Source: Clostridiales bacterium
GTDB lineage: Bacteria; Bacillota; Clostridia; Lachnospirales; Lachnospiraceae
Direction: 5' to 3'
Length of the DNA: 64,000 nt
Assembly (NCBI GenBank): GCA_023663185.1
Contig: JAMPHY010000001.1
Coordinates: 376,994-440,993 of the forward strand
The notes below the pieces were generated by a model that was given only the letters and a program-made list of their open reading frames with translations, was not told the DNA's origin and made no database searches. A program made the translations under genes and the position numbers. This document shows, one piece after another, positions 1-17,467 of the stretch. Numbering within the stretch: the stretch's first letter is position 1; each line of letters begins with the position of its first letter.

Positions 1-1
1 C

Positions 2-766
2 TTATCATGTGTACCTTCCGAAAAATCATTAAGTGCGCCTTACGGCAAATCATTAAGTGAGCTTTCTGCTGGAGAGTTCCATGAAGATACTATTTTTAGT
101 AACCCACTAATTATAGGGAATCCTTCCACGACTGCTTTCCCGCCTCTGCCCTATGCCGAGAAAGAAGCTAATATGGTTGCCGAATGCCTTAACACAGTAT
201 GTTATACCAAAGAAAATGCCGACATTTCCCTGTTTGACTTCCAGACTCATCAATCGCCTTCACTTCTCCATATCGCAGTACATGGCGTCTTTTATCAGGA
301 AGAAAATAGCGCCTTAAAGGGAGTCGGTCTGCATATGCTCTCTGATATTCCTGACTGGAACAACGCTTTCTTGGTAATGGAAAAAAGCGGTCTGGTTCTT
401 GCCAATGACACACTGCTCTCCTGCAATCAAATATCCACTATGGAGCTTACTTCCGTCAGGCTCTCCGTTCTTTCCGCCTGTCAGAGCGGGCAGGGACGCT
501 TCCATGCCTCAGAAGGAATTTACGGCTTAAGACGTGCGCTGAAACTGGCGGGTTGTAAGTCCATCATCGCTTCCCTCTGGCAGATTGATGACCGCTCCGG
601 ATATTACTTTATGCGGTTTTTATATGAAAATCTGGTGAAGACGCCGGGAAACCCAAGACTTGCTTTTTCTCTTGCTGTAGAATCGCTGCGCAGTTATGAA
701 GAAAATAATACCCGCCCGTTTGCAGAGCCATATTATTGGGCGGGGTATATTTTTATACAAGAATAG
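2..766 (+). CDS. CHAT-domain (caspase-like) protease, 3' part only
   Basis: The frame is open from the left edge, so the start lies outside the window; about 254 residues are visible. CHAT domains are caspase-HetF-type cysteine proteases used in stress, cell-death and defence pathways. The sequence shows the expected dyad: His in 'LLHIAVHGVF' and Cys in 'LSACQSGQG', followed by the typical 'GLRRALKLAGCKSIIASLW' strand-helix and the C-terminal 'PYYWAGYIF' motif. The N-terminal sensor or TPR part that these proteins usually carry would be outside. It ends six bases before a convergent regulator fragment. A sigma/anti-sigma pair of the kind sometimes linked with CHAT proteins lies 13 kb away, but a functional link is only an inference. 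Confidence 0.85.
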   Translation, partial: LSCVPSEKSLSAPYGKSLSELSAGEFHEDTIFSNPLIIGNPSTTAFPPLPYAEKEANMVAECLNTVCYTKENADISLFDFQTHQSPSLLHIAVHGVFYQEENSALKGVGLHMLSDIPDWNNAFLVMEKSGLVLANDTLLSCNQISTMELTSVRLSVLSACQSGQGRFHASEGIYGLRRALKLAGCKSIIASLWQIDDRSGYYFMRFLYENLVKTPGNPRLAFSLAVESLRSYEENNTRPFAEPYYWAGYIFIQE

Positions 767-772
767 TTTGCT

Positions 773-1066
773 CTATAATATCTTCCAGAGTCCCGTTTTA
801 TTTGCTCCAATTCTATCGATAAAACCATTTTTCTTTAAATAAGAAATATTCTTCTGAATCGTCGTTTTCCCTACACCTAATTTTTCTGCCAACTGCGGCT
901 GCGTTATACCAGGATTATAATGTATTTCTTCCATAATGCGAATACTTACTTCACTCAATCCTCCTCTTGATTTATCTATCACTTTATCTACCACTTTATC
1001 TATCGCTTTATCTGTCACCTCACTATCAATCTTGTTATATTTCTTAAAAAATCCAAAAAAATACAC
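773..1066 (-). pseudogene. C-terminal winged-helix remnant of an AlbA_2/RecG-like regulator
   Basis: The frame encodes about 97 residues: a repetitive linker (DKAIDKVVDKVIDK) followed by a winged helix-turn-helix ending in 'RIGANKTGLWKIL'. The same layout (repeat linker, winged helix, end 'RMGTDKTGFWVVKE') closes the full-length AlbA_2 protein at 43331-44929. There is no ribosome site before the possible GTG start and the AlbA/HATPase part is absent, so this is best read as a decayed 3' end. It could still be expressed as a small DNA-binding protein. Confidence 0.6.
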
Positions 1067-1133
1067 TGTCCAGCAAAATTTCGATTTTCATTTAATTCAA
1101 TTTTTAATCTTAATTTTAAATATGAAAAAGATA

Positions 1134-1162
1134 TTGTAATTATATTCATATATTGATATAAT
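1134..1162 (+). promoter_or_regulatory. Sigma-A promoter of the precursor peptide/radical SAM operon
   Basis: A -35 box TTGTAA (1134-1139) and a perfect -10 box TATAAT (1157-1162) are separated by 17 bases. The strong ribosome site AAAAAAGGAGG (1174-1184) and the ATG at 1193 follow, giving a short leader of about 25 bases. Confidence 0.75.
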
Positions 1163-1192
1163 AATATAACACCAAAAAAGGAGGCACAAATT

Positions 1193-1345
1193 ATGGCTAA
1201 CACACAAGAGTTCAACAACGGTATAGACTTTATTCAAAGTCTGCAAAATTCTCAGGATTATGGTAATGAAAACGCTTGGGAAGTTGATTCATGGCCCAAT
1301 TATGAAGAATGGCACGATTACTGGAATGATTACAGTGGCGCATAA
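1193..1345 (+). CDS. Candidate RiPP precursor peptide, 50 aa, aromatic/Asp-rich core
   Basis: A very good ribosome site (AAAAAAGGAGG, eight bases upstream) precedes this 50-codon gene. The first half (MANTQEFNNGIDFIQSLQNS) looks like a leader. The second half is packed with aromatic and acidic residues: W29, W34-P-N, Y37, W40-H-D, Y43-W44-N-D, Y47, then Ser-Gly-Ala. It has no Cys or Lys, so thioether or Lys-Trp crosslinks are unlikely. Aromatic-X-Asn/Asp triplets are the known substrates of three-residue cyclophane-forming radical SAM enzymes. The gene overlaps the radical SAM gene by 20 bases, which implies coupled translation. Being a RiPP precursor is an inference from this pairing and composition. 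Confidence 0.8.
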   Translation: MANTQEFNNGIDFIQSLQNSQDYGNENAWEVDSWPNYEEWHDYWNDYSGA

Positions 1346-2480
1346 TCCCAACTTCATAACCCCAATCATCAAAATAGTCGAGAATTGCAATTTTACCTGC
1401 GAATATTGCAGATATGCAAATCATCCGCCTAAAGACAGCTCTATCATGTCGGTAGAATTGTGCAAAAAAATCATTAGGGAAGTATGTACATACAATCTCT
1501 CTAAAGGGATAAGCATTACTTCCCTTATTTTTCATGGCGGAGAACCGCTCCTTTGGGGCAGGGACAGATTTAACGAAATATTGTTGTATGAACATGAATT
1601 GAAAAAGGAATTTCCCCATCTGGAAATCAAAAACGGAATGCAGACTAACGCTTTTCTGATTAATGATGATTGGATTGAGTTATTTCACAAATTCAAGATG
1701 AGCGTCGGGGTAAGCATTGACGGCTTTGCCGATATCAACTCCCATTTTGGTAAAGCCGGCAAAGAAACTTCAACGCAGACTGTTTTGGATAACATTCATC
1801 TTTTGCAAAAGCATAACATTAAGTGCGGAATCTTAAGTGTGATTACGGAAAAGCATTTCCCATACGCAAAAGAATATTTTGATTTTTTACAGAAAGAAAG
1901 AATAGACAACGCAGGCTTCTGCTACTGCTACAATCCTTTAGACGACTATTCATTAAATACGGAAGCGCTTGGACTATTTATGTGCGAATGCTTTGATATA
2001 TATTACAATTCCACATACAAAGTGCATATCAGGGAATTTGAAAATATACTAAAAAAGATGTATGGAATACATAAGAACAGTTGTGTCTGCAAAGAACGAA
2101 GCGATTGTGGAAATTTTATGGCGTTTACTCCAAGTGGAACAGTTTGTTTTTGCGACGCTTACGAAAAAGATTCGAGGGTAATAGGCAATATTAAAGATGA
2201 TAATATTATTTCCATTATCGAGTCTTCGGCATACCAAAATACAAGGGCGGAATATATTTCAACAGCTGATACAGCCTGCAAAGACTGTATGTGGCGTTGT
2301 ATCTGTGGCTGCGGCTGCGCAAGAAGCGATATTTATACCGAAAATGGTACGCGGGCAAATTATTTCTGTGAAACAAATAAAATATTGTGTCAGCATATTT
2401 TTGAGGTTGTAAAAAATGACGACAGGCTGACCGAACAGAACAAGAATCTTATAGAACCGTTAAAAATAATTCGTGTGTGA
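1326..2480 (+). CDS. Radical SAM/SPASM peptide maturase
   Basis: The protein is about 384 residues from ATG 1326; earlier in-frame starts (1260, 1302) lie deeper inside the precursor gene and lack a ribosome site. The radical SAM cluster motif is 'CNFTCEYC' (CxxxCxxC), followed by 'FHGGEPLL'. The C-terminal third has SPASM-type cysteines ('CVCKERSDCG', 'CFCDAYEKD', then 'CKDCMWRCICGCGCARSD', 'FCETNKILC') that would bind auxiliary iron-sulphur clusters. SPASM enzymes modify ribosomal peptides (thioether, epimer, or C-C crosslinks). The adjacent Trp/Tyr-rich precursor is the obvious substrate. No protease, transporter or second tailoring enzyme sits next to it. Confidence 0.9.
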   Translation: MITVAHNPNFITPIIKIVENCNFTCEYCRYANHPPKDSSIMSVELCKKIIREVCTYNLSKGISITSLIFHGGEPLLWGRDRFNEILLYEHELKKEFPHLEIKNGMQTNAFLINDDWIELFHKFKMSVGVSIDGFADINSHFGKAGKETSTQTVLDNIHLLQKHNIKCGILSVITEKHFPYAKEYFDFLQKERIDNAGFCYCYNPLDDYSLNTEALGLFMCECFDIYYNSTYKVHIREFENILKKMYGIHKNSCVCKERSDCGNFMAFTPSGTVCFCDAYEKDSRVIGNIKDDNIISIIESSAYQNTRAEYISTADTACKDCMWRCICGCGCARSDIYTENGTRANYFCETNKILCQHIFEVVKNDDRLTEQNKNLIEPLKIIRV

Positions 2481-2540
2481 AAACGCTTATGGATAACCTG
2501 TAAACAGATAATTCAATTTTCAATATATAAAAACAAATAA

Positions 2541-2731
2541 GACTATATCAGAGAATGGTTACACCATAACACTGATAAGTCTCATTTGCTGTTAAACAAT
2601 AGGTCTCACGGTTACACCCTTTGACCATAATCATTATATGTATTAGAACTAATAAATATGCAGAAGTCACGGTTACACCCTTTACCCTTCTGCAAACGTT
2701 ACATAAAAATGGTTACACCTTAATATGTATC
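2541..2731. repeat. Array of four hairpins carrying the shared core GGTTACACC
   Basis: The 9-mer GGTTACACC occurs at 2557, 2610, 2671 and 2711. Each copy sits between arms of an inverted repeat whose sequence differs from hairpin to hairpin: GACTATATCAG/CTGATAAGTC (2541-2551/2572-2581), GGTC/GACC (2602-2605/2623-2626), GCAGAAG/CTTCTGC (2660-2666/2687-2693) and GTTACATA/TATGTATC (2698-2705/2724-2731). On the minus strand the two middle loops share the 17-mer AAAGGGTGTAACCGTGA. Constant loops on changing stems suggest a structured RNA. The array lies just downstream of the DUF3800 gene on the minus strand. Transcribed strand and function are unknown. This covers most of the 2481-2783 gene-free stretch. 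Confidence 0.7.
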
Positions 2732-2783
2732 ATTGTTTATAGTTTAGCATATATTTAAAATATGTCAACTACGAATATATGTT

Positions 2784-3516
2784 CTATTCCAATAATTTTT
2801 TGAATCCAAATCTGTCTTTCATATTTCCGGAATAACCTCTATATAATTTTGATTCAAACAGTTTATATAATCCACAATAATCTTTTGAACCAATTAAATT
2901 GCGAACAAAAGAAACCGGAATGAAATCTGCAAGTTGAACTCCTAAGTTATTGTCAGATTTCAATGGAAAACTTAATATGGATAACTTTTTCATTATCGTT
3001 TCAGAATTAATAAATAATGTACCGCCTGTTAATAGTCTATAATAGCAGATTTGCAAATATTTGTTTTCCGTTTGATTCCTTGATTCAATAAAAAATGAGC
3101 CAATGCCGTTATGTTCGATTAAAAAATGAACGAAATTCTCTAATATCGTCTGTAAAGCTATATCATAAATATCATTAGTCTTCTCATAGTACATATTTTT
3201 ATATCTTTCAGTATCTATTGATGCAACAAAAACACTTATACTTAAACATTGAATCAGGTTTTTTATCTTGTCAAACAAACTATTTCTTATGTTTGAATCG
3301 GATAAAAATTCAAAGCCTTTAATATTTTTTACGCATATCATATAAATGTAGCGGCAATTCCGGATTTGGCATCAAATCAATTTTAATCTTTTCCAGCTTA
3401 GGCACTAAGATATTTTCATAATCTTCCTTTTTTATAGCATATCCGCCTAATGCGAAATAACTTCCATGTGCATTTGGTTTCGTTTCATCTAAAAACAAAT
3501 AGTATTCATCTTGCAT
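2784..3516 (-). pseudogene. DUF3800 family protein, interrupted by one frameshift
   Basis: The N-terminal piece (3319-3516) begins 'MQDEYYLFLDETKPNAHG' with the DUF3800 signature 'FLDE'. The C-terminal piece (2784 to about 3341) contains 'GVQLADFIPV', the second hallmark of this RNase H-like family. The pieces join in a six-A run: removing one A near 3338 gives a continuous 'LHLYDMRKNIKGFEFLSD' and a protein of about 243 residues, normal for the family. The cause may be a real mutation, phase variation or a sequencing error. DUF3800 proteins are thought to be nuclease-like and are found near structured RNAs. The hairpin array at 2541-2731 directly follows the gene. Confidence 0.75.
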
Positions 3517-3556
3517 ATTATTAATTCTTAAAAATCTCCCATCTTCTCCTTAATTA

Positions 3557-3616
3557 TTACAGGACAAAGTATTCCTTCGTAGTCTCTATTAACTCTTCTT
3601 TATACCGAAAACTTTT
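3557..3616 (-). pseudogene. C-terminal remnant similar to the 9572-9778 small protein
   Basis: The minus-strand frame reads 'YKEELIETTKEYFVL' and stop, matching the end of the 68-residue protein at 9572-9778 (EKEKLTKTDEEYFVL). They share the 16 bases AGGACAAAGTATTCCT. No start codon or ribosome site is present. It lies in the 3517-3683 gap and suggests that the cluster end was once duplicated. Confidence 0.4.
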
Positions 3617-3683
3617 TTATATTATAAAATATTTTTAAGTTTTATGCAAGCACAGCCTGTGATTTTTCTGATATGCCCGAATT

Positions 3684-5624
3684 TTATCCACAATTTCTTT
3701 TATCTACAATCTCTTTCATTTTTTCCAGCGTTTCTTTTTCATCATCAGAAAGACTATAAAAAGTTTCTTTTTCGTTTATATAATCCTTTATTCTTGTCAT
3801 TCTACTTCCTGTTAGTATTTCCTCTAATTCTTTAGGATTTTCTTCTTTAGTATCTAAATCTTTAACTAAATCTTTTATCATCTCTATTTCAAGCACTTTA
3901 AAGTAAATGCTTCTCATAGTATCTTCATTATGTTCATTTTCATCTGTTTTACCGTCTGATTCTTCTATATGGGAATTAATTTCCTTTAAAATTTCAATTT
4001 TTTCATCTGCTGTCTTTTCTGATATATTTGCATATGTATCAGATAATAAAAACGTTTCTGCTTCATTTTTTGATAAATCCAAGTCTTGTAAATTATCTGC
4101 ATTCTCTGCCCTTAATCTTAAACTTTCCTGCATAATATCTTTTTTGATACCAATAAGCTTTTCTCCCTCTTTTACATTATCTACAAGATATTGATATCCC
4201 ATTTCCTGACTCAACTCTTTTCTATTTGCTTTTAAAGTAGAATATATTTCGTCAGGACTTTTTCCAACTTTATTTACAAAATTATCTATTTCCAATCTTT
4301 GTTCTTCTGGAGCAGCTGCTATTTCTTTCTCCTCATTTTCTTTAGAAATAACATTTTCTTCAGGAATAACTTCCTCTAAAGCTTCGTTTGATACTTGTTC
4401 TTTTGACTCTTTAAGCTCTTCTATATCTTCTGAAATACTGCTTATTAAGTCAGATATAAGTTTTCTATTTTCGTATATATCTATTTCGGTTCTTAAACGG
4501 TTTAAATCTAATTTACTTAATCCTATCCGCCCTAGGCTTTGCTCTATGCCCTGTTCTATATTAGATTTTGAATTTTCTGTTTTTTCTTTATCACTTAAAT
4601 CTTTGATAGTCTTTTCTGGAAATTCTTTCTCTGAAAATATTTTATCTTTTTCTACAAATTTCCCCAATAAACCATTTTTATATAATGCTTCCAGTTTGTC
4701 TATACCATCTGATTCTGCTTGTCTTAAAGCTGCGTTAATAGAAGCTTCATCATGAAATGTAAAACTTTTCTTAAAATCAAATATTTTATCAGCGATTATT
4801 ATATTTCCATATTCTTTAAATATCCATTTATTTGCTTCTATAAATACGTGATTTGTTGGAGATTTTAAATCAAAATTTAATTGTTCTATTAAGCTCTCAA
4901 CTCCTTTTCTATGTTCAGGTTCATTTTTATAAGCTTCTTCATCAAAAACAAATTTATCTTCTACTCTTTTAGCTATAAAAACATAACAAGTATCATGATT
5001 ATTAATACTCTTAATAATAGATATTTCAAATCTGTCTTTTACTGTTTCATCTTCTTTCAATCTTATAATACTTTTCATATCCCCTTTTTCATTTTCAAAA
5101 CAAACGAAATCCGGCATATTGGGGGTGTCGGTAATAATGTCATATAATCCTTTATTTGCATAACCTATGGTTGCATTTACTGTACTTCTAATACCATTTA
5201 TTAAATCAGACTTATATTGCATTTCTAATTTATTCTTGTCTAAATCCCAGGCTTTTACTATATTAGCTAAAAATCTTTTCGCAAAAATCCTCGTAGAAGT
5301 ATTTTTTCTTGTAGATTTTTTTATGATATAATTTAATTCTTCTCCATCTAAAGCGTTAGCCTCTATTTTAAATTTTGTCTCCCAATCGTCATTATTAATA
5401 TGTTCTAAAAGGCAGACTTTTCTCTTGAAAACTTCAAGACAGACTGTTTCACCTATTGTATTAACAATTATAAGTTTGAAGTCATGATTATTAACATATT
5501 CACTACTATAATCTGATATAGCTATAAAACGGCCATCGGAAAGAGCAGCAAGTAGTTCATTTCTTGAATTTTTAAAAGTCCTCTCATTTCTGGGAATATT
5601 ATTTATTATTTTTTTTTTCGCCAA
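3684..5624 (-). CDS. Large acidic unknown protein, likely downstream half of a split gene
   Basis: A frame of about 646 residues with no recognised domain. The first 350 residues look globular. The rest is rich in Glu, Lys and Asp with helical, coiled-coil-like stretches and disordered acidic segments (for example 'EEVIPEENVISKENEEKE'). No membrane segment or signal peptide is visible. The only start in the correct place is a TTG at 5624 with no ribosome site, and the first internal Met is far inside. The frame begins inside the last codons of the upstream gene at an A10 run, so it may be expressed by translational coupling or by slippage that fuses it to the upstream protein. It is the last gene of the AAA/SEL1 cluster. 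Confidence 0.6.
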   Translation of the reverse strand: MAKKKIINNIPRNERTFKNSRNELLAALSDGRFIAISDYSSEYVNNHDFKLIIVNTIGETVCLEVFKRKVCLLEHINNDDWETKFKIEANALDGEELNYIIKKSTRKNTSTRIFAKRFLANIVKAWDLDKNKLEMQYKSDLINGIRSTVNATIGYANKGLYDIITDTPNMPDFVCFENEKGDMKSIIRLKEDETVKDRFEISIIKSINNHDTCYVFIAKRVEDKFVFDEEAYKNEPEHRKGVESLIEQLNFDLKSPTNHVFIEANKWIFKEYGNIIIADKIFDFKKSFTFHDEASINAALRQAESDGIDKLEALYKNGLLGKFVEKDKIFSEKEFPEKTIKDLSDKEKTENSKSNIEQGIEQSLGRIGLSKLDLNRLRTEIDIYENRKLISDLISSISEDIEELKESKEQVSNEALEEVIPEENVISKENEEKEIAAAPEEQRLEIDNFVNKVGKSPDEIYSTLKANRKELSQEMGYQYLVDNVKEGEKLIGIKKDIMQESLRLRAENADNLQDLDLSKNEAETFLLSDTYANISEKTADEKIEILKEINSHIEESDGKTDENEHNEDTMRSIYFKVLEIEMIKDLVKDLDTKEENPKELEEILTGSRMTRIKDYINEKETFYSLSDDEKETLEKMKEIVDKRNCG

Positions 5625-6769
5625 CTTCGGAAGTGAATATAATTATTATATTTATAGGCTATTTCTTTCCAAAAATTTTTGTCATATCCAAGAATAGTTT
5701 GTACTCGCCCTATTATTTTTATTCTTTCATTTTCTTCTGAGAAATTTCCTAAAGAAAATTCTTCTCCATTATAAGAAATCTTAATAAGCATTTTATCTTT
5801 TTCATCTGTATCTCCTGCAGGGCGGAATATTCTGATAAGAGATATATTGCCATTTGAATAGGTAACTTCTTTTGGCTTATCTTCATTAATAGTATGCAGG
5901 GATAATACCTTTTCCAATTTTAATTCCCTGGGAAACATTTGTTTATTTACATATTGTTCAATATATTTCCAGTCTTCTATTGGGATTCTATTATCTTCTA
6001 TATTTTTATAAGCTTTATAAACTGCTCTTCTTCTTGCTTCTTTACTAAACCTGGGATAATCGTGTTCTATATCCTTACTAAAATGTCTAAGGATTCCTGC
6101 CTGGTCTGATAAAGCTACTTCCATGACTGTCCTATCTTCTATATAATCTAAAACAATATCTTCAAAATTTTCTTTTATAAAGTTGTCTTTTACTTCATCT
6201 AATTCAGTCCAATATTGCATTGGAAGCTCAATTCTTTCTTCCGCAATATCTTTTTCAAATTTTAATCGTCCGCTTTTTAAATTGTTATTTGCTTTATCTT
6301 TAACATATTTAATAAGTTCACTTTGATAATTAATATAGGATGGATATTCAGGATTATGAGCCATAATAGTATCCGGATTACTGCTCTGACCCCAGTTTAA
6401 ATCGGAAATATTACGAGGGTTATTTTCCATTATAACTTCTTTATAAGACTCATAAAGCAGAGGAGCTGTTAATTCTCTATCTTTTCCTAAAATATCATCT
6501 ACCCGTTTTTTATATGCCAATATCATTTCATAGTTATTCATAATATCCTGTATTGTTGATTTGTCTATTTCTTCATTTGGATAAGCATCGTTTATAGCCC
6601 TGATTAATATAGGGTTCTCCGCAGCAGAGTCTCCATATCCATACAAATTTCTAATTTTCTCATAGAAATCTTCATATTTATTTTCATTGATGCTAAGTCC
6701 GTCTTCCGGATGTAGTTCACAGCTTTCAAGAAAACTTACATAATCGCTAACCTTTATAAATCCCATCAT
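5606..6769 (-). CDS. Unknown protein, 387 aa, upstream half of a possible split gene
   Basis: The start at 6769 is preceded by AAAGGAG. The second Met is adjacent, so the start may be one codon later. The protein is soluble and charged, and I recognise no family. It ends '...FRSWRKKK' in an A10 tract where an extra A would continue translation into the next frame, giving a joined protein of about 1,030 residues. It is located between the giant SEL1 gene and the acidic unknown, on the same strand with short gaps, and therefore probably in one operon. AT-rich codon use matches the acidic gene but differs from the more GC-rich ATPase and sigma genes upstream. Confidence 0.7.
   Translation of the reverse strand: MMGFIKVSDYVSFLESCELHPEDGLSINENKYEDFYEKIRNLYGYGDSAAENPILIRAINDAYPNEEIDKSTIQDIMNNYEMILAYKKRVDDILGKDRELTAPLLYESYKEVIMENNPRNISDLNWGQSSNPDTIMAHNPEYPSYINYQSELIKYVKDKANNNLKSGRLKFEKDIAEERIELPMQYWTELDEVKDNFIKENFEDIVLDYIEDRTVMEVALSDQAGILRHFSKDIEHDYPRFSKEARRRAVYKAYKNIEDNRIPIEDWKYIEQYVNKQMFPRELKLEKVLSLHTINEDKPKEVTYSNGNISLIRIFRPAGDTDEKDKMLIKISYNGEEFSLGNFSEENERIKIIGRVQTILGYDKNFWKEIAYKYNNYIHFRSWRKKK
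5609..5618. repeat. A10/T10 homopolymer at the junction of two frames
   Basis: Ten consecutive T on the plus strand (A on the coding strand) span the stop region of the 387-residue gene and the start of the 646-residue frame. One added A puts both frames in register. Tracts of this length are prone to polymerase slippage. Confidence 0.8.
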
Positions 6770-6821
6770 TTTAAAATATCTCCTTTTATTTTTATAATTT
6801 TAATTCCCGCGAGGATTAAGT

Positions 6822-9512
6822 TTAATTCGTTTCTGTCTGCCCAATCTCCTCCCGTATACGCCGGATTTCCGCCTCTAGTCTGGCTATCTCCGCCTTTTTC
6901 CTGCTTAGTTCATCCTCTGCCTCTGCATCAATCGTTTTAAGTGCTAACTGTGCATCCTCATTTCCCTGCTCTGCCGCCTTCCTATACCATTCCGCTGCTT
7001 TGGCTTTATCCTGTTCTACTCCTTCGCCATTGTCGTACATAACTCCCAGACGGTATTGCGCCTTTACATGCCCCTGCTCCGCCGCCTTTCTATACAACTC
7101 CGCCGCTTTGGCTTTATCCTGTTCTACCACTTCGCCATTGTCATACATATACCCCAGACGGTATTGAGCCTTAAATTTCCCCTGCTCTGCCGCCTTCCTA
7201 TACCACTCCGCTGCCTTAGCTTTATCCTGCTCTACTCCTTCACCATTGTAATACATATACCCCAGATTGTTTTGTGCAACCGCATTCCCCTGCTCTGCAG
7301 ACTTTCTATACCACTCCGCTGCCTTAACTTTATCCTGCTCTACTCCTTCGCCGCTGTAATACATATCTCCCAGCTTTTTTTGTGCACCCTCTTTCCCCTG
7401 CTCTGCTGCCTTCCTAAACCACTCCGCCGCTTTGGCTTTATCCTGTTCTACCCCTTCGCCATTGTTATACATATACCCCAAATTGCTTTGTGCACTCGCA
7501 TATCCCTGCTCTGCCGCCTTTCTATACCACTCCACCGCTTTAACTTTATCCTGCTCTACTCCTTCGCCATTGTCATACATAAGTCCCAGATTGTTTTGTG
7601 CACTCGCATTCCCTTGCTCTGCCGCCTTCCTATACCACTCCGCCGCTTTGGCTTTATCCTGCTCTACCCCTTCACCATTGTCATACATATACCCCAGATT
7701 GAATTGTGCAGACGCATCTCCCTGCTCTGCCGCCTTCCTATACCACTCCACTGCCTTAACTTTATCCTGCTCTACTCCCTTGCCATTGTCATACATAAGT
7801 CCCAGCTTGTTTTGTGCAGCCGCATACCCCTGCTCTGCCGCCTTCCTATACCACTCCACTGCCTTAACTTTATCCTGCTCTACTCCTTCGCCATAGGCAT
7901 ACATATCCCCCAGATTGTATTGTGCACGCGCAATACCCTGCTCTGCAGACTTCCTATACCACTCCGCTGCCTTAACTTTATCCTGCTCTACTCCTTCGCC
8001 ATAGGCATATATAAGTCCCAGACGGCATTGTGCATACTCATCCCCTTGTTCTGCCGCCTTCCTAAGCCACTCCGCCGCTTTGGCTTTATCCTGCTCTACT
8101 CCTTCGCCCTCGTAATACATACACGCCAGCCAGAATTGTGCACTCGCATCCCCCTGCTCTGCCGCCTTTCTATACCACTCCACTGCCTTAACTTTATCCT
8201 TCTCTACTCCCTTGCCATTGGCATACATATCCCCCAGATTGTATTGTGCAATCTCATGCCCCTGCTCTGCCGCCTTCCTATACCACTCTGCCGCTTTGGC
8301 TTTATCCAGCTCTACTCCTTCACCATGGGCATACATATACCCCAGTTTGTTTTGTGCAGTCGCATTACCCTGCTCTGCCGCCTTTCTATACCACTCCACT
8401 GCCTTAATTTTATCCTGTTCTACCCCTTCGCCATTGTAATACATAAGTCCTAGATTGCTTTGTGCAGTCGCATTACCCTGCTCTGCCGCCTTTCTATACC
8501 ACTCCACTGCCTTAACTTTATCCTGTTCTACCCCTTCGCCATTGTCATACATAAGTCCCAGATTGTTTTGTGCAGCCGCATACCCCTGTTCTGCAGCCTT
8601 TCTATACCACTCCGCTGCTTTGGCCTTATCCTGCTCTACCCCTTCGCCATTGTCATACATATACCCCAGATTGTTTTGTGCACTCGCATTACCCTGCTCT
8701 GCCGCCTTCCTATACCGCTCTGCTGTCTTAACCTTATCCTGCTCTTCCCCTTCGCCATTGTCATACAACATAAGTCTCAGGCAGAGTTGTGCAGTCGCAT
8801 CCCCCTGCTCTGCCGCCTTCCTAAACCACTCCCCTGCCTTAACTTTATCCTGTTCTACCCCTTCGCCATTGCCATACATAAGTCCCAGATTTAATTGTGC
8901 AGCCGCATACCCCTGTTCTGCCGCCTTCTGATACCACTCCCCTGCCTTAACTTTATCCTGTTCTACCCCTTCGCCATTGGCATACATAAGTCCCAGCTTG
9001 TTTTGTGCAGCCGCCTCTCCCTGCTCTGCCGCCTTCCTAAACCACTCCACCGCTTTGACTTTATCCTGTTCTACCCCTTCGCCATCGTCATACATAGCCC
9101 CCAGATTGTATTGTGCAGCCGCATTATCCTGCTCTGCCGCCTTCCTAAACCACTCCACTGCCTTAACTTTATCCTGTTCTACCCCTTCACCTTCTTCATA
9201 CAAATGCCCAAGACCGTTTTGTGCACCCGCATATCCCTGCTCTGCCGCCTTCCTAAGCCACTCCGCCGCCTTGACCTTATCCTGTTCTATCCCTTCGCCA
9301 TTGTAATACATATTCCCCAGCTCGCATTGCGCTTCTGCATCTCCCTGCTCCGCTGCCTGCTGCCACCACCATGCTGCCATCTCCTTATCCTGTTCTACGC
9401 TTTCGCCATAATAATACATATGTGCCAGATTTTTTTGCACTCCCAGTTCTCCGGCCTCACCCATTCTTTCCAGAAAATCAATATATTTCTCATCTTCACT
9501 TATATAAGCCAT
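6822..9512 (-). CDS. Giant SEL1-repeat protein with 23 repeats
   Basis: The 896-residue protein starts at an ATG with an AAAGGAG site. It contains 23 tandem SEL1-like repeats of 36 residues with consensus MYDNGEGVEQDKVKA-EWYRKAAEQG-A-AQ-NLG, followed by a short C-terminal coiled coil (SRKKAEIARLEAEIRR). SEL1 repeats form alpha-solenoids that hold partner proteins. The DNA repeats are 108 bases and very similar to each other, so copy number probably changes by recombination. There is no signal peptide. It lies downstream of the AAA+ ATPase and membrane protein genes, suggesting a scaffold for that complex. Long open frames on the opposite strand are shadows of the repeat. Confidence 0.92.
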   Translation of the reverse strand: MAYISEDEKYIDFLERMGEAGELGVQKNLAHMYYYGESVEQDKEMAAWWWQQAAEQGDAEAQCELGNMYYNGEGIEQDKVKAAEWLRKAAEQGYAGAQNGLGHLYEEGEGVEQDKVKAVEWFRKAAEQDNAAAQYNLGAMYDDGEGVEQDKVKAVEWFRKAAEQGEAAAQNKLGLMYANGEGVEQDKVKAGEWYQKAAEQGYAAAQLNLGLMYGNGEGVEQDKVKAGEWFRKAAEQGDATAQLCLRLMLYDNGEGEEQDKVKTAERYRKAAEQGNASAQNNLGYMYDNGEGVEQDKAKAAEWYRKAAEQGYAAAQNNLGLMYDNGEGVEQDKVKAVEWYRKAAEQGNATAQSNLGLMYYNGEGVEQDKIKAVEWYRKAAEQGNATAQNKLGYMYAHGEGVELDKAKAAEWYRKAAEQGHEIAQYNLGDMYANGKGVEKDKVKAVEWYRKAAEQGDASAQFWLACMYYEGEGVEQDKAKAAEWLRKAAEQGDEYAQCRLGLIYAYGEGVEQDKVKAAEWYRKSAEQGIARAQYNLGDMYAYGEGVEQDKVKAVEWYRKAAEQGYAAAQNKLGLMYDNGKGVEQDKVKAVEWYRKAAEQGDASAQFNLGYMYDNGEGVEQDKAKAAEWYRKAAEQGNASAQNNLGLMYDNGEGVEQDKVKAVEWYRKAAEQGYASAQSNLGYMYNNGEGVEQDKAKAAEWFRKAAEQGKEGAQKKLGDMYYSGEGVEQDKVKAAEWYRKSAEQGNAVAQNNLGYMYYNGEGVEQDKAKAAEWYRKAAEQGKFKAQYRLGYMYDNGEVVEQDKAKAAELYRKAAEQGHVKAQYRLGVMYDNGEGVEQDKAKAAEWYRKAAEQGNEDAQLALKTIDAEAEDELSRKKAEIARLEAEIRRIREEIGQTETN

Positions 9513-9571
9513 GTCAGTTTCTCCTTTACATAATTAAAATAATGAATTTAATCCCATTCGGAAGGTTTTGC

Positions 9572-9778
9572 CTATAGGACAAAGTATTCCTCATCGGTTT
9601 TTGTTAATTTTTCTTTTTCCTTAAATATATACATATCTTTTTTATTTATATACAGGCATTTCCTATAGTAAAATGTAAAAACCCATCTCTTTTTGGAAAT
9701 AATCTTCTTTAAAATAGGCGGGTATGTAAAAAACAGCACTACTATAAGGCAGCCTAATTCAACCATTGCTATTGTCAT
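9572..9778 (-). CDS. Small single-TM protein, 68 aa, unknown
   Basis: AAAGGAG lies nine bases before the ATG. One membrane segment is visible near the N-terminus (about residues 5-22, VELGCLIVVLFFTYPPIL), followed by a basic region and a charged tail ending 'EEYFVL'. I do not recognise a family. It sits between the polytopic coiled-coil protein and the SEL1 protein genes with short gaps, so it probably belongs to the same membrane assembly. A remnant of a similar C-terminus is found at 3557-3616. Confidence 0.65.
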   Translation of the reverse strand: MTIAMVELGCLIVVLFFTYPPILKKIISKKRWVFTFYYRKCLYINKKDMYIFKEKEKLTKTDEEYFVL

Positions 9779-9791
9779 TTTGCGCTCTCCT

Positions 9792-11162
9792 TTATCTCCG
9801 GCTCTTCGTCCTGTCGGTATTTGCAGTCAGTTTTGACTCCTCTATTGTTTTTTCTACAATCTTCTTTTCTGTATCGGAAAGGCTTTCGCCTTGTCTGATC
9901 TTTCTTTCAGTCTCTTTGTAAGCCTTTTCTTCCTGTTTCTTTCTCTTTTCTTCAGCATTTCTTTCATCACTATATTTAGTACAGTTTCTTATATAATCAT
10001 CATAAGCTTTATCGGCCGCCCTTTTTCTTTCCCACTCTTCCTGCTTTTTCCTTTTCCTTTCTCTCTCTTCCCTTTTTCTTTGCAGCGGGGTTTTGGCCGC
10101 TTCCTCTTGTCTCTTTCTTTCTTCCTCGGCTTCTTTCTCTCTTTTCTTTTTTTCTTCCTCTTTTCTTTTTCTTTCTTCCTCAAAGAGGTCATCTTCTTCT
10201 TTCGGACTTAGAAATTTGTGCTCAGGAAAAATTATACCACGGTTATTATGTAAACTATTAATAGCAATTTCTTTTTTAGCAATATTATCTTTTTCGTCCT
10301 TAAAAAAGTTCCTGAGATTTTTGGACAGGGCATATCTGCCAATTCCTACAATAAAGGCTATTATCAATATTTGCCAATTATTATAAAGTGTCACTGTCCC
10401 TTTACTGTAAAGAAACAATCCTAAAACAAGAACGATAATTTGACCGATTGAATTCCTTTTTATAATGGAAAAGGTCTTATTTTCAATAAAGTTATTTTTA
10501 AGCTTAAATCTGATTATCAGCGCTGTGATTAAAAAGCATATGAGTATTTTCCAGTGCTGTCCCGGAACAACCCAGCTTATGGATAATATTTTCTGTGTCT
10601 TATCAGGTATTGACGCTAAAGCGATAAGAAAGACCGTATAAAGTTCTGCAAATCTGGATAACATAATCATGGGAAGAAGCTTTTTTTCTAAATTTAAAAA
10701 ATATCCCATTTCCTTAAAGTAACCTGTAGTTTTTCCCCTATACAAAGTATGTAAAATTTTATAATGATAAATAAAAGCGCCAATGGATACTGCGTAAGAA
10801 ATTGTACCCATAACCATATTCCCGGTATTTTTTCCCACCACAATAGACGCCATAATGATAAGAAAAGTAAAAATATCGCCTAAGACTCTTCCAATCCTGT
10901 AGGTCCCGATATATTGGTAGAAGCAGGGCGTTATGGATTTTCCTTTCAACTCCCTGTAAATGTATGGCATTGGCTTTTCCTTTTCTTCCCTCTTCTCCCG
11001 TTCTTCTCGTCTTTTCTCCCTTTCTTCTTGTTGCTTTTTCTCTCTTTCTTCTCGTTCTTTTGCAATTTTCGCCTCCTCTTCCGGCGATAATGGTTTAGGT
11101 CTGATATACTTCGGTATGTTTACCGTTCTTTTTGGCTGTGTGTCTGAGTTTTCCTTTTCCAT
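9792..11162 (-). CDS. Polytopic membrane protein with charged coiled-coil arms
   Basis: The start at 11162 is chosen because GAAGGAGC lies eight bases upstream; longer frames would run into the preceding ATPase gene. The 456-residue protein has a Pro-rich N-terminus, then a Glu/Arg/Lys coiled coil (EEREKRREEREKREEKEK), then six or seven membrane segments (about residues 85-300), and a second long charged coiled coil at the C-terminus (KRKEEEKKKREKEAEEER). No enzyme motif is visible. The charged arms would face the cytoplasm and could bind the SEL1 or AAA+ partners. Family unknown. It starts 25 bases after the ATPase stop, so it is in the same operon. Confidence 0.75.
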   Translation of the reverse strand: MEKENSDTQPKRTVNIPKYIRPKPLSPEEEAKIAKEREEREKKQQEEREKRREEREKREEKEKPMPYIYRELKGKSITPCFYQYIGTYRIGRVLGDIFTFLIIMASIVVGKNTGNMVMGTISYAVSIGAFIYHYKILHTLYRGKTTGYFKEMGYFLNLEKKLLPMIMLSRFAELYTVFLIALASIPDKTQKILSISWVVPGQHWKILICFLITALIIRFKLKNNFIENKTFSIIKRNSIGQIIVLVLGLFLYSKGTVTLYNNWQILIIAFIVGIGRYALSKNLRNFFKDEKDNIAKKEIAINSLHNNRGIIFPEHKFLSPKEEDDLFEEERKRKEEEKKKREKEAEEERKRQEEAAKTPLQRKREERERKRKKQEEWERKRAADKAYDDYIRNCTKYSDERNAEEKRKKQEEKAYKETERKIRQGESLSDTEKKIVEKTIEESKLTANTDRTKSRR

Positions 11163-11187
11163 AATATTTGCTCCTTCGATAATATTT

Positions 11188-12852
11188 TTACCTGCCGGTA
11201 TATGCACCCCTGTCAACGGTTGAAAACGAAGCGTTGATATTGTTTCTGGAAAGAAGGTCCCTATGGCGCGCCTTGTATGCGTCGGGAATAAACTCCTGGT
11301 CATTGCACTCTTTCAGGGCGATATCCTCCATCTCATGAATCTTTTCATTCTGATTGGAAAGCATATAGCTCATGGCAAGCTCCACAATATTCTGCGTAAT
11401 GGAACTTCTTTTCTTCCTCTTCGCAAGCTCCCGCGCCTTTACAACGACTGCCTCGATTTCAGCCTGCGTATATCCGTCCGATTTTTCAACCAGATAATCG
11501 ATTTTTACGTCATCGCCCATAGGAAGGTTTTTATCTTCATTCAGTTTCAGCTTAAAGATAGCGGCGCGTTCTCCTTTTGAGGGGGCGAAGAAAGGAATCT
11601 TCTTGTCAAAACGTCCGGGACGCTTCAAAGCCTCGTCCACGTTGTTAGGATAGTTAGTGGCCGCAAACCAGAGAATCTTACCTCTGTTGGAAGGCTTTGA
11701 CATCTCCGCAAGGAGCATGCCGAAAAGGTTGGCGTTCACCGAGCTTGCGCCGTCAGAACCGCCTTGTCCTCTGGACATGGACTGGTCGATTTCGTCCATA
11801 AATACGCCGCAGGGAGATAACGCCCGAAATACCTGTAACGCCTTTTCCATTGATTTTTCAGACTCGCCGACATACTTTCCGAGAATCTTGGAAAGTTTAA
11901 ACTCCACAAAGTTGATTCCGGAGTCGGCGGCAAGACATTTCGCAAAATAAGTCTTACCTGTTCCGGGCGGTCCCATAAGCAGAACGCCCTTAGGAACAAT
12001 ATCCGTATCGCCGTTCTTTAAGGCGTCGATAACTACCTCTTTGAAGTAATTCTTGATAGTATCCTGTCCTGCGAATTTAGAAAGACTGAGCCCCTCCGTA
12101 TCAAAAATCTCAATGACTTCCCCGAATTCTTTCCTGATGATCGCTTTTTTCTTTTCAAGGATCATCGCAATGGTAAGCCAGCCGTCATTATATGCGGTAA
12201 GGATGATATCCTCAAGAGAGACAAGCTGAAGCCCTGCGGTAAGACGGGCAACGCCTTTAGCGTCGATCTGCATCCTGATATCGTGCATAATCTCCTTGTG
12301 ACTGCTTGCCCAACTGTTGAAGAATGCAAGCCTCTGGTCTTCGTCGGGAAGTTCGATATTTATTAAGGAAATCCTTGAATTGTTTCCAAGAAACATAGGA
12401 TGTATATTTGTCGTGGACTCCGTAACGAAAATCGCAATGTTGGCGGAAGTCACAAAATTACTGGAATTAATAATAGAGTGAAATCCCGTGATGATCTGCT
12501 TATCTTTGTCTGAAATCATATCTCCGGCGGGGATAAGATATTCCGGATAATAAAAGATAAAGCCGTTTTGACCTGTCGGCTGGCTCATAAGTTCAAAAAG
12601 ACTGCCGAGATTGACTACTTTCTTGCCGCCTGAATTATAGGAGACGCCCCCCGAATTGATATCATAAATATAGACGTCTTCAAGGTTGAAGTGTCCGATC
12701 CTATTCTTATCAAGCAGGAATCTAACCAGATAATCTTTCAGATATGTAGTCTCGTAAGCATAATCCCCGATATTTCCCGTAATCATAAAGGCGTTGGAAA
12801 TCTGGCCTTTATAGAGCTGTTGGATTTCAGCCTGCCACTTTGGAAAATTCAT
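11188..12852 (-). CDS. Ycf46-like AAA+ ATPase
   Basis: 554 residues with TAGGAGG before the ATG. The C-terminal half is a classical AAA+ module: Walker A 'GPPGTGKT', Walker B 'GVFMDEID', sensor 1 'WFAATN', arginine finger region 'RPGRFD', and a helical lid. The N-terminal half looks like a degenerate AAA domain without a P-loop, the arrangement known from Ycf46-type proteins. AAA+ proteins of this class remodel or unfold partners. The neighbours (coiled-coil membrane protein, SEL1 scaffold, sigma and anti-sigma) suggest a membrane-linked regulatory or conflict complex. That role is an inference. Confidence 0.9.
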   Translation of the reverse strand: MNFPKWQAEIQQLYKGQISNAFMITGNIGDYAYETTYLKDYLVRFLLDKNRIGHFNLEDVYIYDINSGGVSYNSGGKKVVNLGSLFELMSQPTGQNGFIFYYPEYLIPAGDMISDKDKQIITGFHSIINSSNFVTSANIAIFVTESTTNIHPMFLGNNSRISLINIELPDEDQRLAFFNSWASSHKEIMHDIRMQIDAKGVARLTAGLQLVSLEDIILTAYNDGWLTIAMILEKKKAIIRKEFGEVIEIFDTEGLSLSKFAGQDTIKNYFKEVVIDALKNGDTDIVPKGVLLMGPPGTGKTYFAKCLAADSGINFVEFKLSKILGKYVGESEKSMEKALQVFRALSPCGVFMDEIDQSMSRGQGGSDGASSVNANLFGMLLAEMSKPSNRGKILWFAATNYPNNVDEALKRPGRFDKKIPFFAPSKGERAAIFKLKLNEDKNLPMGDDVKIDYLVEKSDGYTQAEIEAVVVKARELAKRKKRSSITQNIVELAMSYMLSNQNEKIHEMEDIALKECNDQEFIPDAYKARHRDLLSRNNINASFSTVDRGAYTGR

Positions 12853-15634: not shown

Positions 15635-17467
15635 TTACTCCCCCTTCTCTTTAAGGCAGGGCGGAATCGCCCATTTTGCCGGTTTAAAATTTTTCATTCC
15701 AAGCTCCTGCATCGTCAAAAATACTTTATCTTTTCTGCGGCAGGTCAGCTCCATATCATGCGCCAGCTTTAATTTATCCGAAGAAGTATACCATTGAAGC
15801 TCCATAGCGTCTTCAAACCTCTGGAAATTTGTAAGCGCCGTTCGCAAAATACCCTCTCCCGTCTCTAACTCCTTCAATGAGATTAGCTCGTTTACCAAAA
15901 TCATTCCATTATAAGTTCCGACTAACCATATAATCTTAACCCTTGTTCTGTTTCTCGCAGTAATTATTTTTTTGAGCGGATAACTGTATACTCCTGCACT
16001 ATCTTTATTTTGCTTGCTATCCAGTTTATCTATGCTTTTATTTAATTTAAGCATGTCATATACAGATACCGGCTGCCAAATGTCAGCTTCGATACAAGGC
16101 TGTGCGCTGCCGTCTGCTTCGATTGTTATTTGCGCCTGCCGCTTTTTCTGTGCAGGATATTCGTCAATATCGGCAAGGTTCACGATACAGGGGCAGTTCC
16201 TTCCTGAAAGCACTAACGCCTCGCCCTTTTCCTTGTCCAAATGCTGAAGCTCAAATTCGGATATCAGGGGCATAGTCACGTTATTATCATAGATTACCTC
16301 ACCGCATAATTTACTGATTTCATTTAACAGCTCATAGTCCTTGCTGTATAAATATACCCAGTTGCTGCAATTATCACAAATAACAGACGCTATATCGCCA
16401 TATTTGCTATTCATCTGCATTTTACTCTGTACGATTAGACAGAAACGGATATTTCTGCTTCTGGAAGCCGTAATCATGGAATCCATATTATTTATCTTAG
16501 GAATGTTCGCAAACTCATCTATAATATAGTTCATTCTGATATCCAGCTTGCATTCTGCGCGTTTCTGCGCCATTTTTATCAGAAATTCATATAGCTGCTT
16601 GATAAAAAGGCTCGCAACAAAATGGGTGAAGGTGTTTTCGTCAGGAATAATCAGATAAATGGCAATCTTTTTATCGACTACGCTGTTAAACTCCAATCCC
16701 GCCTGAGATAAAAAATCCACAAATTCTTCATTGGCGGCTAATTTGTTGATACCGGTAGCAACTACCGCTTCAATAGAACCCACCGTTTTTTCAGAGCTGT
16801 TGTCTAAGGTTCCGAGTTTTCTCCTAATCAATGAGTCTTTGAATAATGATTTAATAGCCCCCAGTGTATCCTTCTTCGCGTCAAGGTATTGCCCCCACAA
16901 AGTAATCAGACTTTTTATATTGCATTCCTCTTTTTTTGCCTGCTCCAGCAAAATAAGCATAAAGCCCGTAACCACGTCGGCTGCCGAATTGGTCCAAAAA
17001 GGATCGTCCTCTTTATCTCCGATTATCATTTTGGATAACTCGCTTATCATTTCCACCGCTTTACCCTTTTCACCGCTATGATAGAAGTCATAAGGCAGCG
17101 CTAACGGATTCCATGTATTTCCTTCTCTAAAATCCCGTAAATTCAGGCAAAAAACCTGATATCCCTTCTGCCGCACGTTTTCAGCAGTCTTATTATATAT
17201 TTCGCCTTTAGGATCAGTAATCACAAAGGATTCTCCTGCTCCGCTCAATATCTCTACCGCGGGCATTCCCAACAGACGAGTCTTTTTACTTCCGGTCGCG
17301 CCGAAAATAATGGTATGGCTGTCGCCGGTATCTACATACGCCTTCCCATCTTGCACAATTAACGGCACGCCTCCGGCTTGGTATTCCCCCTGCTCTAAAT
17401 CAATTTCCGTTAATTTTTCCTTTAAGTCTTCCTGTGAGACAAACTTCGTTCCATTTATTCTATTCAT
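15635..17467 (-). CDS. VirD4/TraG-like coupling ATPase without N-terminal membrane domain
   Basis: 610 residues, with GAGGAGGAC before the ATG. A P-loop 'FGATGSKKTRLLGMP' comes early (near residue 56), followed by 'FVITDPKGEIY' and Walker B 'YIIDEFANIPKI', all hallmarks of VirD4/TraG-family hexameric ATPases. The P-loop has Lys where the family normally has Gly (GSKKT instead of GSGKT), although the catalytic Lys is kept. The usual N-terminal membrane helices are missing. No relaxase or VirB4 gene accompanies it, so it may serve a system other than conjugation. The start overlaps the preceding gene by eight bases. Confidence 0.88.
   Translation of the reverse strand: MNRINGTKFVSQEDLKEKLTEIDLEQGEYQAGGVPLIVQDGKAYVDTGDSHTIIFGATGSKKTRLLGMPAVEILSGAGESFVITDPKGEIYNKTAENVRQKGYQVFCLNLRDFREGNTWNPLALPYDFYHSGEKGKAVEMISELSKMIIGDKEDDPFWTNSAADVVTGFMLILLEQAKKEECNIKSLITLWGQYLDAKKDTLGAIKSLFKDSLIRRKLGTLDNSSEKTVGSIEAVVATGINKLAANEEFVDFLSQAGLEFNSVVDKKIAIYLIIPDENTFTHFVASLFIKQLYEFLIKMAQKRAECKLDIRMNYIIDEFANIPKINNMDSMITASRSRNIRFCLIVQSKMQMNSKYGDIASVICDNCSNWVYLYSKDYELLNEISKLCGEVIYDNNVTMPLISEFELQHLDKEKGEALVLSGRNCPCIVNLADIDEYPAQKKRQAQITIEADGSAQPCIEADIWQPVSVYDMLKLNKSIDKLDSKQNKDSAGVYSYPLKKIITARNRTRVKIIWLVGTYNGMILVNELISLKELETGEGILRTALTNFQRFEDAMELQWYTSSDKLKLAHDMELTCRRKDKVFLTMQELGMKNFKPAKWAIPPCLKEKGE

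Follow-up and report, generated by a model that had tools for sequence, protein, structure and literature searches.

A two-gene RiPP unit conserved in two genomes, in which a SPASM radical SAM enzyme is predicted to cross-link an aromatic-rich peptide

Does a short reading frame that overlaps a radical SAM gene in a Clostridiales bacterium encode a substrate of that enzyme and, if so, what would the enzyme make of it? The question was raised by an earlier note on the window, that is, the whole stretch of 64,000 nucleotides of contig JAMPHY010000001.1 that was analysed, in which a 50-residue peptide ORF overlapping a radical SAM ORF was read as a RiPP unit. Both ORFs are present as described (1193–1345 and ending at 2480), and the elements of the pair are as follows.

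1193..1345, plus strand: precursor peptide gene, an ORF of 50 aa
1335..2480, plus strand: radical SAM/SPASM enzyme gene, 381 aa if the start is GTG 1335
1134..1162, plus strand: promoter-like site, TTGTAA-17-TATAAT with TG ahead of the second hexamer, its position being the sole argument for it
1180..1184, plus strand: GGAGG ribosome site, 8 nt upstream of the precursor ATG, as read from the sequence
1217..1252, plus strand: conserved leader segment, residues 9–20, N-G-[IV]-D-F-I-x-S-L-Q-N-S, from the alignment of the peptide with its relative
1271..1342, plus strand: presumed core, residues 27–50, from the alignment, the codon comparison and the triplets

The peptide gene had been credited with an excellent promoter and ribosome site. 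The GGAGG upholds the second half of this statement but the promoter does not stand out, as positions 700–3700 hold 14 promoter-like sites compared with a mean of 16.2 (sd 4.2) in shuffled sequences. In-frame starts available to the enzyme in the window are GTG 1335, ATG 1326 (384 aa) and ATG 1260. We infer that GTG 1335 is used, this codon being aligned with the ATG chosen for a Butyrivibrio relative (5992; a further in-frame start lies upstream at L018 ATG 5965), and with these starts the two genes overlap by the same 11 nt in both genomes. A 12-base tandem repeat (971–1018) is found upstream of the pair, in antisense orientation to the first part of a short winged-helix ORF (773–1066).

The relative was found by an enzyme scan of genome contigs (nine pattern-matching stretches), a scan that depends on exact peptide words and may miss more distant members. 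It lies in the MAG Butyrivibrio sp. SIG347 (SVGB01000014.1), where a gene for a 48-residue peptide (L018:5856–6002) is located directly upstream of the enzyme gene (L018 5992–7131). The search for homologous pairs that the earlier note had called for thus shows the small gene kept next to the enzyme in a second genome, contrary to the possibility, also raised there, that no homologue would retain it. The arrangement of triceptide-type systems, in which a SPASM radical SAM gene has a small precursor gene next to it, is accordingly seen in the single relative found. The two enzymes are 72% identical (271/379 ungapped positions) and the two peptides 67% (MAFFT alignment). When window positions 1–6000 were compared with the 13-kb Butyrivibrio locus, DNA similarity was limited to a single block (1241–2464 versus 5904–7121) that corresponds to most of the pair, from peptide codon 17 to near the end of the enzyme gene. 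The flanking genes differ: among ORFs of at least 80 aa in the left flank (L022) and window 1–30000 on one side and Butyrivibrio L018, L023 and L024 on the other, the two sides share just the enzyme and a weak AAA match (27%). Since DNA similarity is confined to the pair and the flanks differ, the peptide and enzyme genes seem to travel as one unit. We conclude that the pair is real and conserved in two genomes.

In searches for further members, the 79 genomes searched in the genus of the Butyrivibrio relative, a set separate from the window genome, yielded only the relative itself (E 1e-40). Among 194 relatives of the window genome, the only near match was the window genome, one other genome matching at 31%. 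Protein and profile searches of 391 class, 397 family, 398 phylum and 325 order genomes (the samples overlap) returned the two known members only; at looser limits they gave remote homologues, at 28–33% identity in some searches and L021 in another. In viral contigs, no further member was detected by searches with the enzyme or the peptide, with the alignment of the two enzymes or with a DNA pattern of the core. Enzyme matches in plasmids (41 and 120 records, depending on the limit) and in phages (16 records) were all below 60% identity, and one peptide searched against plasmids and one against phages gave no match. Seven peptide matches in the 194 genomes (eight with the window; E 0.045–0.1) lie in frames that contain stops or encode 161–2264 aa and were not counted as relatives. 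Among small ORFs on the enzyme strand beside the remote homologues L003, L012–L017 and L021, none contained more than two Aro-X-[Asn/Asp] triplets or resembled the precursor. Only two members of the family are known.

Codon comparison of the two peptide genes, between which synonymous sites are saturated, gave 12 unchanged, 19 synonymous and 17 nonsynonymous pairs among 48 ungapped codon pairs. Residues 27–39 (NAWEVDSWPNYEE) are identical at 13/13 positions, with eight synonymous and no nonsynonymous codon differences. Since this segment is invariant despite eight synonymous changes, the small gene has the signature of a selected protein, and the codon pattern indicates that the peptide is under purifying selection at the protein level; a chance ORF was ruled out on the same grounds. 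Neither peptide contains Cys, Lys or Arg, in agreement with the earlier note as regards Cys and Lys, and the last 24 residues of the window peptide include 7 Trp/Tyr and 6 Asp/Glu. Since Cys and Lys are absent, thioether and Lys–Trp products are excluded; the sacti-/ranthipeptide maturases, which require precursor cysteines, and the Lys–Trp (streptide-type) cyclases, which require a core lysine, were therefore rejected as classes for the enzyme. Searches of NCBIfam and Pfam with the peptide gave no match at E up to 1, consistent with the previous view that the precursor belongs to no nameable RiPP class.

Four triplets are in register in both peptides, namely Y23-x-N25, W34-P-N36, [W/Y]40-H-D42 and W44-x-[D/N]46. 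The triplets first singled out in the window peptide (WPN, WHD, YWN and WND) are all present, and those beginning at W34, W40 and W44 recur in the relative, whereas Y43-W-N45 is absent from the Butyrivibrio peptide. When the peptides are paired without gaps, W40Y remains aromatic and D46N remains Asn/Asp, whereas residues 43, 47 and 48 change class. MAFFT gaps the Butyrivibrio peptide by two residues at 45–46, and the D46N pairing needs the ungapped reading; the W44 triplet exists in each peptide under either alignment. By column shuffling, four shared Aro-X-[Asn/Asp] pairs (i/i+2) were observed in residues 1–48 against a mean of 1.42 (uncorrected p 0.024); uncorrected p was 0.018 for residues 21–48 and 0.051 for residues 27–48 (3 observed, mean 1.08). 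Taken singly, the window core gave p 0.035 and the Butyrivibrio core p 0.137, which is not significant. The other aromatic-to-[Asn/Asp] spacings tested by shuffling showed no excess. The enrichment in these sequences appears modest and marginal, suggestive but not strong, and repeated triplets alone were not accepted as proof of cyclophanes, given uncorrected p values of 0.018–0.14 depending on the part examined.

Ring formation at the Aro-X-[Asn/Asp] triplets is the chemistry that we predict, and the evidence leans towards it. On balance, we favor a two-gene RiPP family whose enzyme would introduce triceptide-like cross-links between Trp/Tyr and the C-beta of Asn/Asp. In the course of events that we infer, including bond type, ring number, leader recognition and coupling, the peptide would be translated first and, because the start codon of the enzyme gene falls within the 3′ end of the peptide gene, translation of the enzyme would probably be coupled to it. 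The enzyme may recognize leader residues 9–20, a candidate recognition motif. SAM would be cleaved at the CxxxCxxC cluster and the C-beta hydrogen abstracted from the Asn/Asp that closes each triplet; the radical would attack the Trp/Tyr ring two residues upstream, and the electron would exit via the two SPASM clusters. The predicted product carries three C–C linked three-residue rings (W34–N36, W/Y40–D42 and W44–D/N46), each formed with loss of 2 H; Y23-x-N25 and W29-x-x-D32 are additional candidates for rings. The earlier note had expected a fused multi-ring product; since triplets 34–36, 40–42 and 44–46 have no residue in common, separate three-residue rings fit better. Of its overall interpretation, the conserved pair, the Aro-X-Asn/Asp core and the lack of a known class hold, whereas the fused product and, as described below, a resemblance of the SPASM domain to the sampled cyclophane synthases are not supported.

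The triceptide systems (GrrM/OscB, XyeB/XncB, FxsB/HaaB, YhhB and YxdB) likewise combine a peptide that has an Aro-X-Asn/Asp core with a SPASM enzyme. Precedents for Trp-x-Asp/Asn and Tyr-x-Asp bonds are given in an excerpt of PMC11002830, according to which OscB bonds C7 of Trp to the C-beta of an Asn or Asp residue and YxdB bonds C3 of Tyr to that of an Asp. Trp-x-Asn is abundant in hypothetical peptides encoded upstream of GrrM in L027 and L028.

In Pfam, the enzyme hits Radical_SAM (E 3.4e-15) and SPASM (E 1.8e-8), with the CxxxCxxC motif at residue 21 and a SPASM part containing CX9GX4C and CX2CX5CX3C (384-aa numbering). Among NCBIfam families it scores highest on the anSME model TIGR03942, with 192.9 bits against a cut-off of 349.45 (Butyrivibrio enzyme, 203.1). 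DynA is the second-best family (148.1 bits, 147.7–148.1 in the comparison with a cut-off of 450). GrrM (131.1 bits, cut-off 310), YhhB (122.8, 445), DarW (120.6), AmcB (110.5, 425), XyeB (103.9, 450), DarE (100.4) and FxsB (99.2, 370) were also matched. The ten best matches comprise seven named cyclophane-forming, Dyn or Dar maturases and three anSMEs, and among the best 25 of 41 NCBIfam families there is none whose cut-off the enzyme exceeds.

The position of DynA raises the possibility of a different radical SAM change on the same core: four-residue Trp-x-x-Asp rings (W29–D32), His–Tyr, aryl–aryl or ether bonds, epimerisation or C-beta hydroxylation. We regard this alternative as unlikely, although with an appreciable chance. 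The Trp to Asn(i+3) bond of dynobactin, described in an excerpt of PMC11002830, parallels W29-x-x-D32, and W29-E-V-D32 is the same in both peptides. A further precedent is Cluster 27, for which an excerpt of PMC9062424 lists 12 SPASM enzymes, 10 of them next to one peptide that contains the repeat Aro-X-X-Asn twice. However, a single shared Aro-X-X-[Asn/Asp] was observed (p 0.72), which is no excess, and only the i+2 spacing is enriched. Dynobactin's second bond, His–Tyr, has a possible counterpart (H41-D42-Y43) in the window peptide only, the Butyrivibrio peptide reading H-D-S, and the DynA score itself falls far short of the cut-off.

Cluster 27 resembles the present pair in that the SPASM enzyme is accompanied by one peptide rich in aromatic residues and Asn, but differs, as far as the excerpted description allows a comparison, in having Aro-X-X-Asn twice where mainly Aro-X-[Asn/Asp] is found here; Aro-Asn and Aro-X-Asn motifs are mentioned in the same excerpt for clusters 19 and 63. 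A description of the family was not found in the literature on RiPP cyclophanes, triceptides, dynobactin, Butyrivibrio RiPPs, ChlB and anSME, a body of work in which subscription papers were mostly outside the scope. In the best reading, the two-gene RiPP family is probably new, although it may coincide with Cluster 27.

If the predicted cyclophane chemistry is correct, the pair represents a RiPP family that is very compact and seldom seen, its enzyme standing between sulfatase maturases and cyclophane synthases in architecture. In a comparison of SPASM domains that had been proposed at the outset, the enzyme proved unlike the sampled GrrM/FxsB/YhhB-type cyclophane synthases. As in the anSME-like rows of the alignment, 8/8 anSME-type SPASM cysteine columns are filled (four AuxI and four AuxII; ligand numbering after excerpts of PMC5682303 and PMC5491770), whereas the seven GrrM/FxsB/YhhB-type rows have AuxII and 0/4 AuxI cysteines. 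Cys-261, the eighth SPASM cysteine, is described in an excerpt of PMC5491770 as specific to anSME among SPASM enzymes characterised to 2017; its equivalent is present in the window enzyme and also in the Cetobacterium and Enterococcus rows. The window and Butyrivibrio enzymes are richer in cysteine (23 and 24) than the other 22 rows (8–19), and the window enzyme has seven CxC motifs versus 0–2 in those rows. Twenty-two cysteines are common to both members, 11 of them beyond the 3+8 expected ligands and including repeated CxC and a CxCxCxC run; an extra cysteine at residue 198 is also common in anSME-like rows. The extra shared cysteines could bind a further cluster.

The Cetobacterium row derives from a 9.4-kb Cetobacterium somerae plasmid on which a SPASM radical SAM gene overlaps an MFS transporter gene (L025 2953–5377). 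Its enzyme, the nearest non-member by tree path although the grouping is unsupported (43/12), lies below the cut-off in the best 12 families listed.

The tree was computed from 23 rows after L020 had been dropped from 24 for its long branch, and it was built without XyeB, DarE, DynA and YxdB sequences; YhhB was trimmed to its first 420 residues and eight rows were trimmed 25 residues ahead of the CxxxCxxC motif. The window and Butyrivibrio enzymes form a pair (100/100) outside both the 13-row anSME-like group (96/98) and the 7-row GrrM/FxsB/YhhB-type group (97/95). Of the former group, 11 rows were scanned and nine exceed the TIGR03942 cut-off, with L026 (344.6) and L033 (340.8) just below it and L021 and L035 outside the scan; in the latter group, five exceed a GrrM, FxsB or YhhB cut-off and L036 and L037 lie below. 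A grouping of the enzyme with anaerobic sulfatase maturases, which the earlier note had considered fatal to its reading, was rejected in the sole nesting tested, within a 10-row anSME-like subgroup (AU p 0.0223). Positions as sister to the anSME group (AU p 0.422) and to the cyclophane group (AU p 0.453) are equally possible, and grouping with GrrM alone is borderline (AU p 0.0521). On the anSME model, the 11 scanned anSME-like rows score 340.8–513.6 and the seven GrrM/FxsB/YhhB-type rows 115.1–176.9 bits, and the window enzyme is nearer to the latter. By these comparisons, the enzyme belongs to a lineage of its own rather than to a named family. It differs from the triceptide enzymes in its scores, its tree lineage, a peptide that matches no model and a full AuxI cysteine set, which the seven sampled members lack.

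The enzyme resembles anSMEs in its best sequence match, the same eight SPASM cysteines, a similar length and the lack of any Pfam domain beyond Radical_SAM, SPASM and Fer4_12; the best solved-structure matches are also anSMEs, followed by ChlB. It differs from them in having a peptide partner and the 11 further shared cysteines. The target motif of anSMEs is Cys/Ser-X-Pro/Ala-X-Arg. By anSME-like chemistry, the conserved Ser33 in its Ser-Trp-Pro context would be oxidised to formylglycine, giving an aldehyde peptide and no cross-link, an outcome to which the cysteine set and the identity of Ser33 and Pro35 in both peptides lend some plausibility. We nevertheless consider it distinctly improbable, since the motif needs an Arg that neither peptide has, the anSME-model score is far below those of the sampled anSME-like enzymes and the tested nesting was rejected. 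Moreover, conservation of Ser33 is non-specific, as it lies inside the fully identical block, and formylglycine formation would not account for the aromatic and Asn/Asp residues that are conserved.

A search for Pfam Sulfatase (PF00884, E up to 1e-5) gave no match in either of the two host genomes, that of the window being 94.83% complete, compared with matches in 8/14 control genomes. Since neither genome has a Pfam Sulfatase match, an anSME role appears unlikely for the enzyme, and an ordinary sulfatase maturase was rejected on this result together with the low anSME score and the tree position. Membership in anSME (TIGR03942) was likewise rejected, although all eight cysteines are in place, as both enzymes score below the cut-off and do not nest in the tested subgroup.

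Counting against cross-linking of the triceptide type are the anSME model, which outscores every cyclophane model for both members, the anSME structures as best matches and the presence of all four AuxI cysteines, lacking in the seven GrrM/FxsB/YhhB-type enzymes; the first point is tempered by the cross-matches of these seven to the same anSME model. In a bolder proposal, a SPASM lineage with full anSME-type auxiliary clusters and 11 extra shared cysteines has been redirected from protein activation to an encoded peptide, yielding either cyclophanes made with a fully ligated AuxI or a formylglycine RiPP. We rate this as rather unlikely; if true, the lineage would connect the maturation of sulfatases with the ring-forming chemistry of RiPPs. 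Should the triplets indeed be cross-linked, the pair would allow the role of a fully cysteine-ligated AuxI to be addressed, as the cysteines concerned are missing from the seven sampled GrrM/FxsB/YhhB-type enzymes, and its two-gene size makes co-expression simple.

ORFs around the pair were read throughout the window, in the 20-kb flank to its left (L022) and over 23–66 kb of the Butyrivibrio contig, and 28 flank proteins were scanned with Pfam. As stated in the earlier note, no dedicated exporter or leader protease was recognized beside the window pair. At the Butyrivibrio locus, an ORF of 275 aa without a Pfam match, seemingly membrane-spanning by eye, begins 290 nt downstream of the enzyme gene (L018 7422–8249), and ABC-transporter-like ORFs (by eye) occur ∼9 kb away and further off (L024 4015–8884); ORF comparison revealed no counterparts of either beside the window pair. 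Peptidase_C39 is absent from the window genome and has two matches in the Butyrivibrio genome, both on other contigs. The lack of an evident leader-cleavage site, protease or exporter would suit a small gene that encodes no substrate but a regulatory or structural small protein, or serves as a translational leader for the enzyme gene, yet this is very improbable given protein-level selection on residues 27–39, the joint occurrence of peptide and SPASM enzyme in unrelated neighbourhoods and the absence of a Pfam Sulfatase substrate from both genomes.

Downstream of the enzyme gene, GGTTACACC is present in four copies in 170 bases (2554–2723; repeat families D4 and D6). It is followed on the minus strand by a DUF3800-type gene (2784–3516) that consists of two overlapping ORFs in different frames, the Pfam match being in the longer part only. 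To the left of the window, L022 contains type III CRISPR genes (86–4302; Cas10/Csm1, RAMP and Cas6), at a distance of ∼13 kb from the start of a TPR-CHAT protein (901 aa, ending at window position 766). The same flank has eight tandem minus-strand ORFs of 103–114 aa (L022 7822–10647), paralogues by eye, of which the one scanned gave no Pfam match. Islands of Sel1-repeat and AAA proteins are found near both loci (window 6822–12852, with Sel1 at 6822–9512 assigned by eye; L018/L023), with no clear orthologues between them. Further along the window, a minus-strand ORF (15635–17467) matches T4SS-DNA_transf (E 2e-41), an ATPase resembling type IV secretion coupling proteins, and hints at a conjugative or integrative element.
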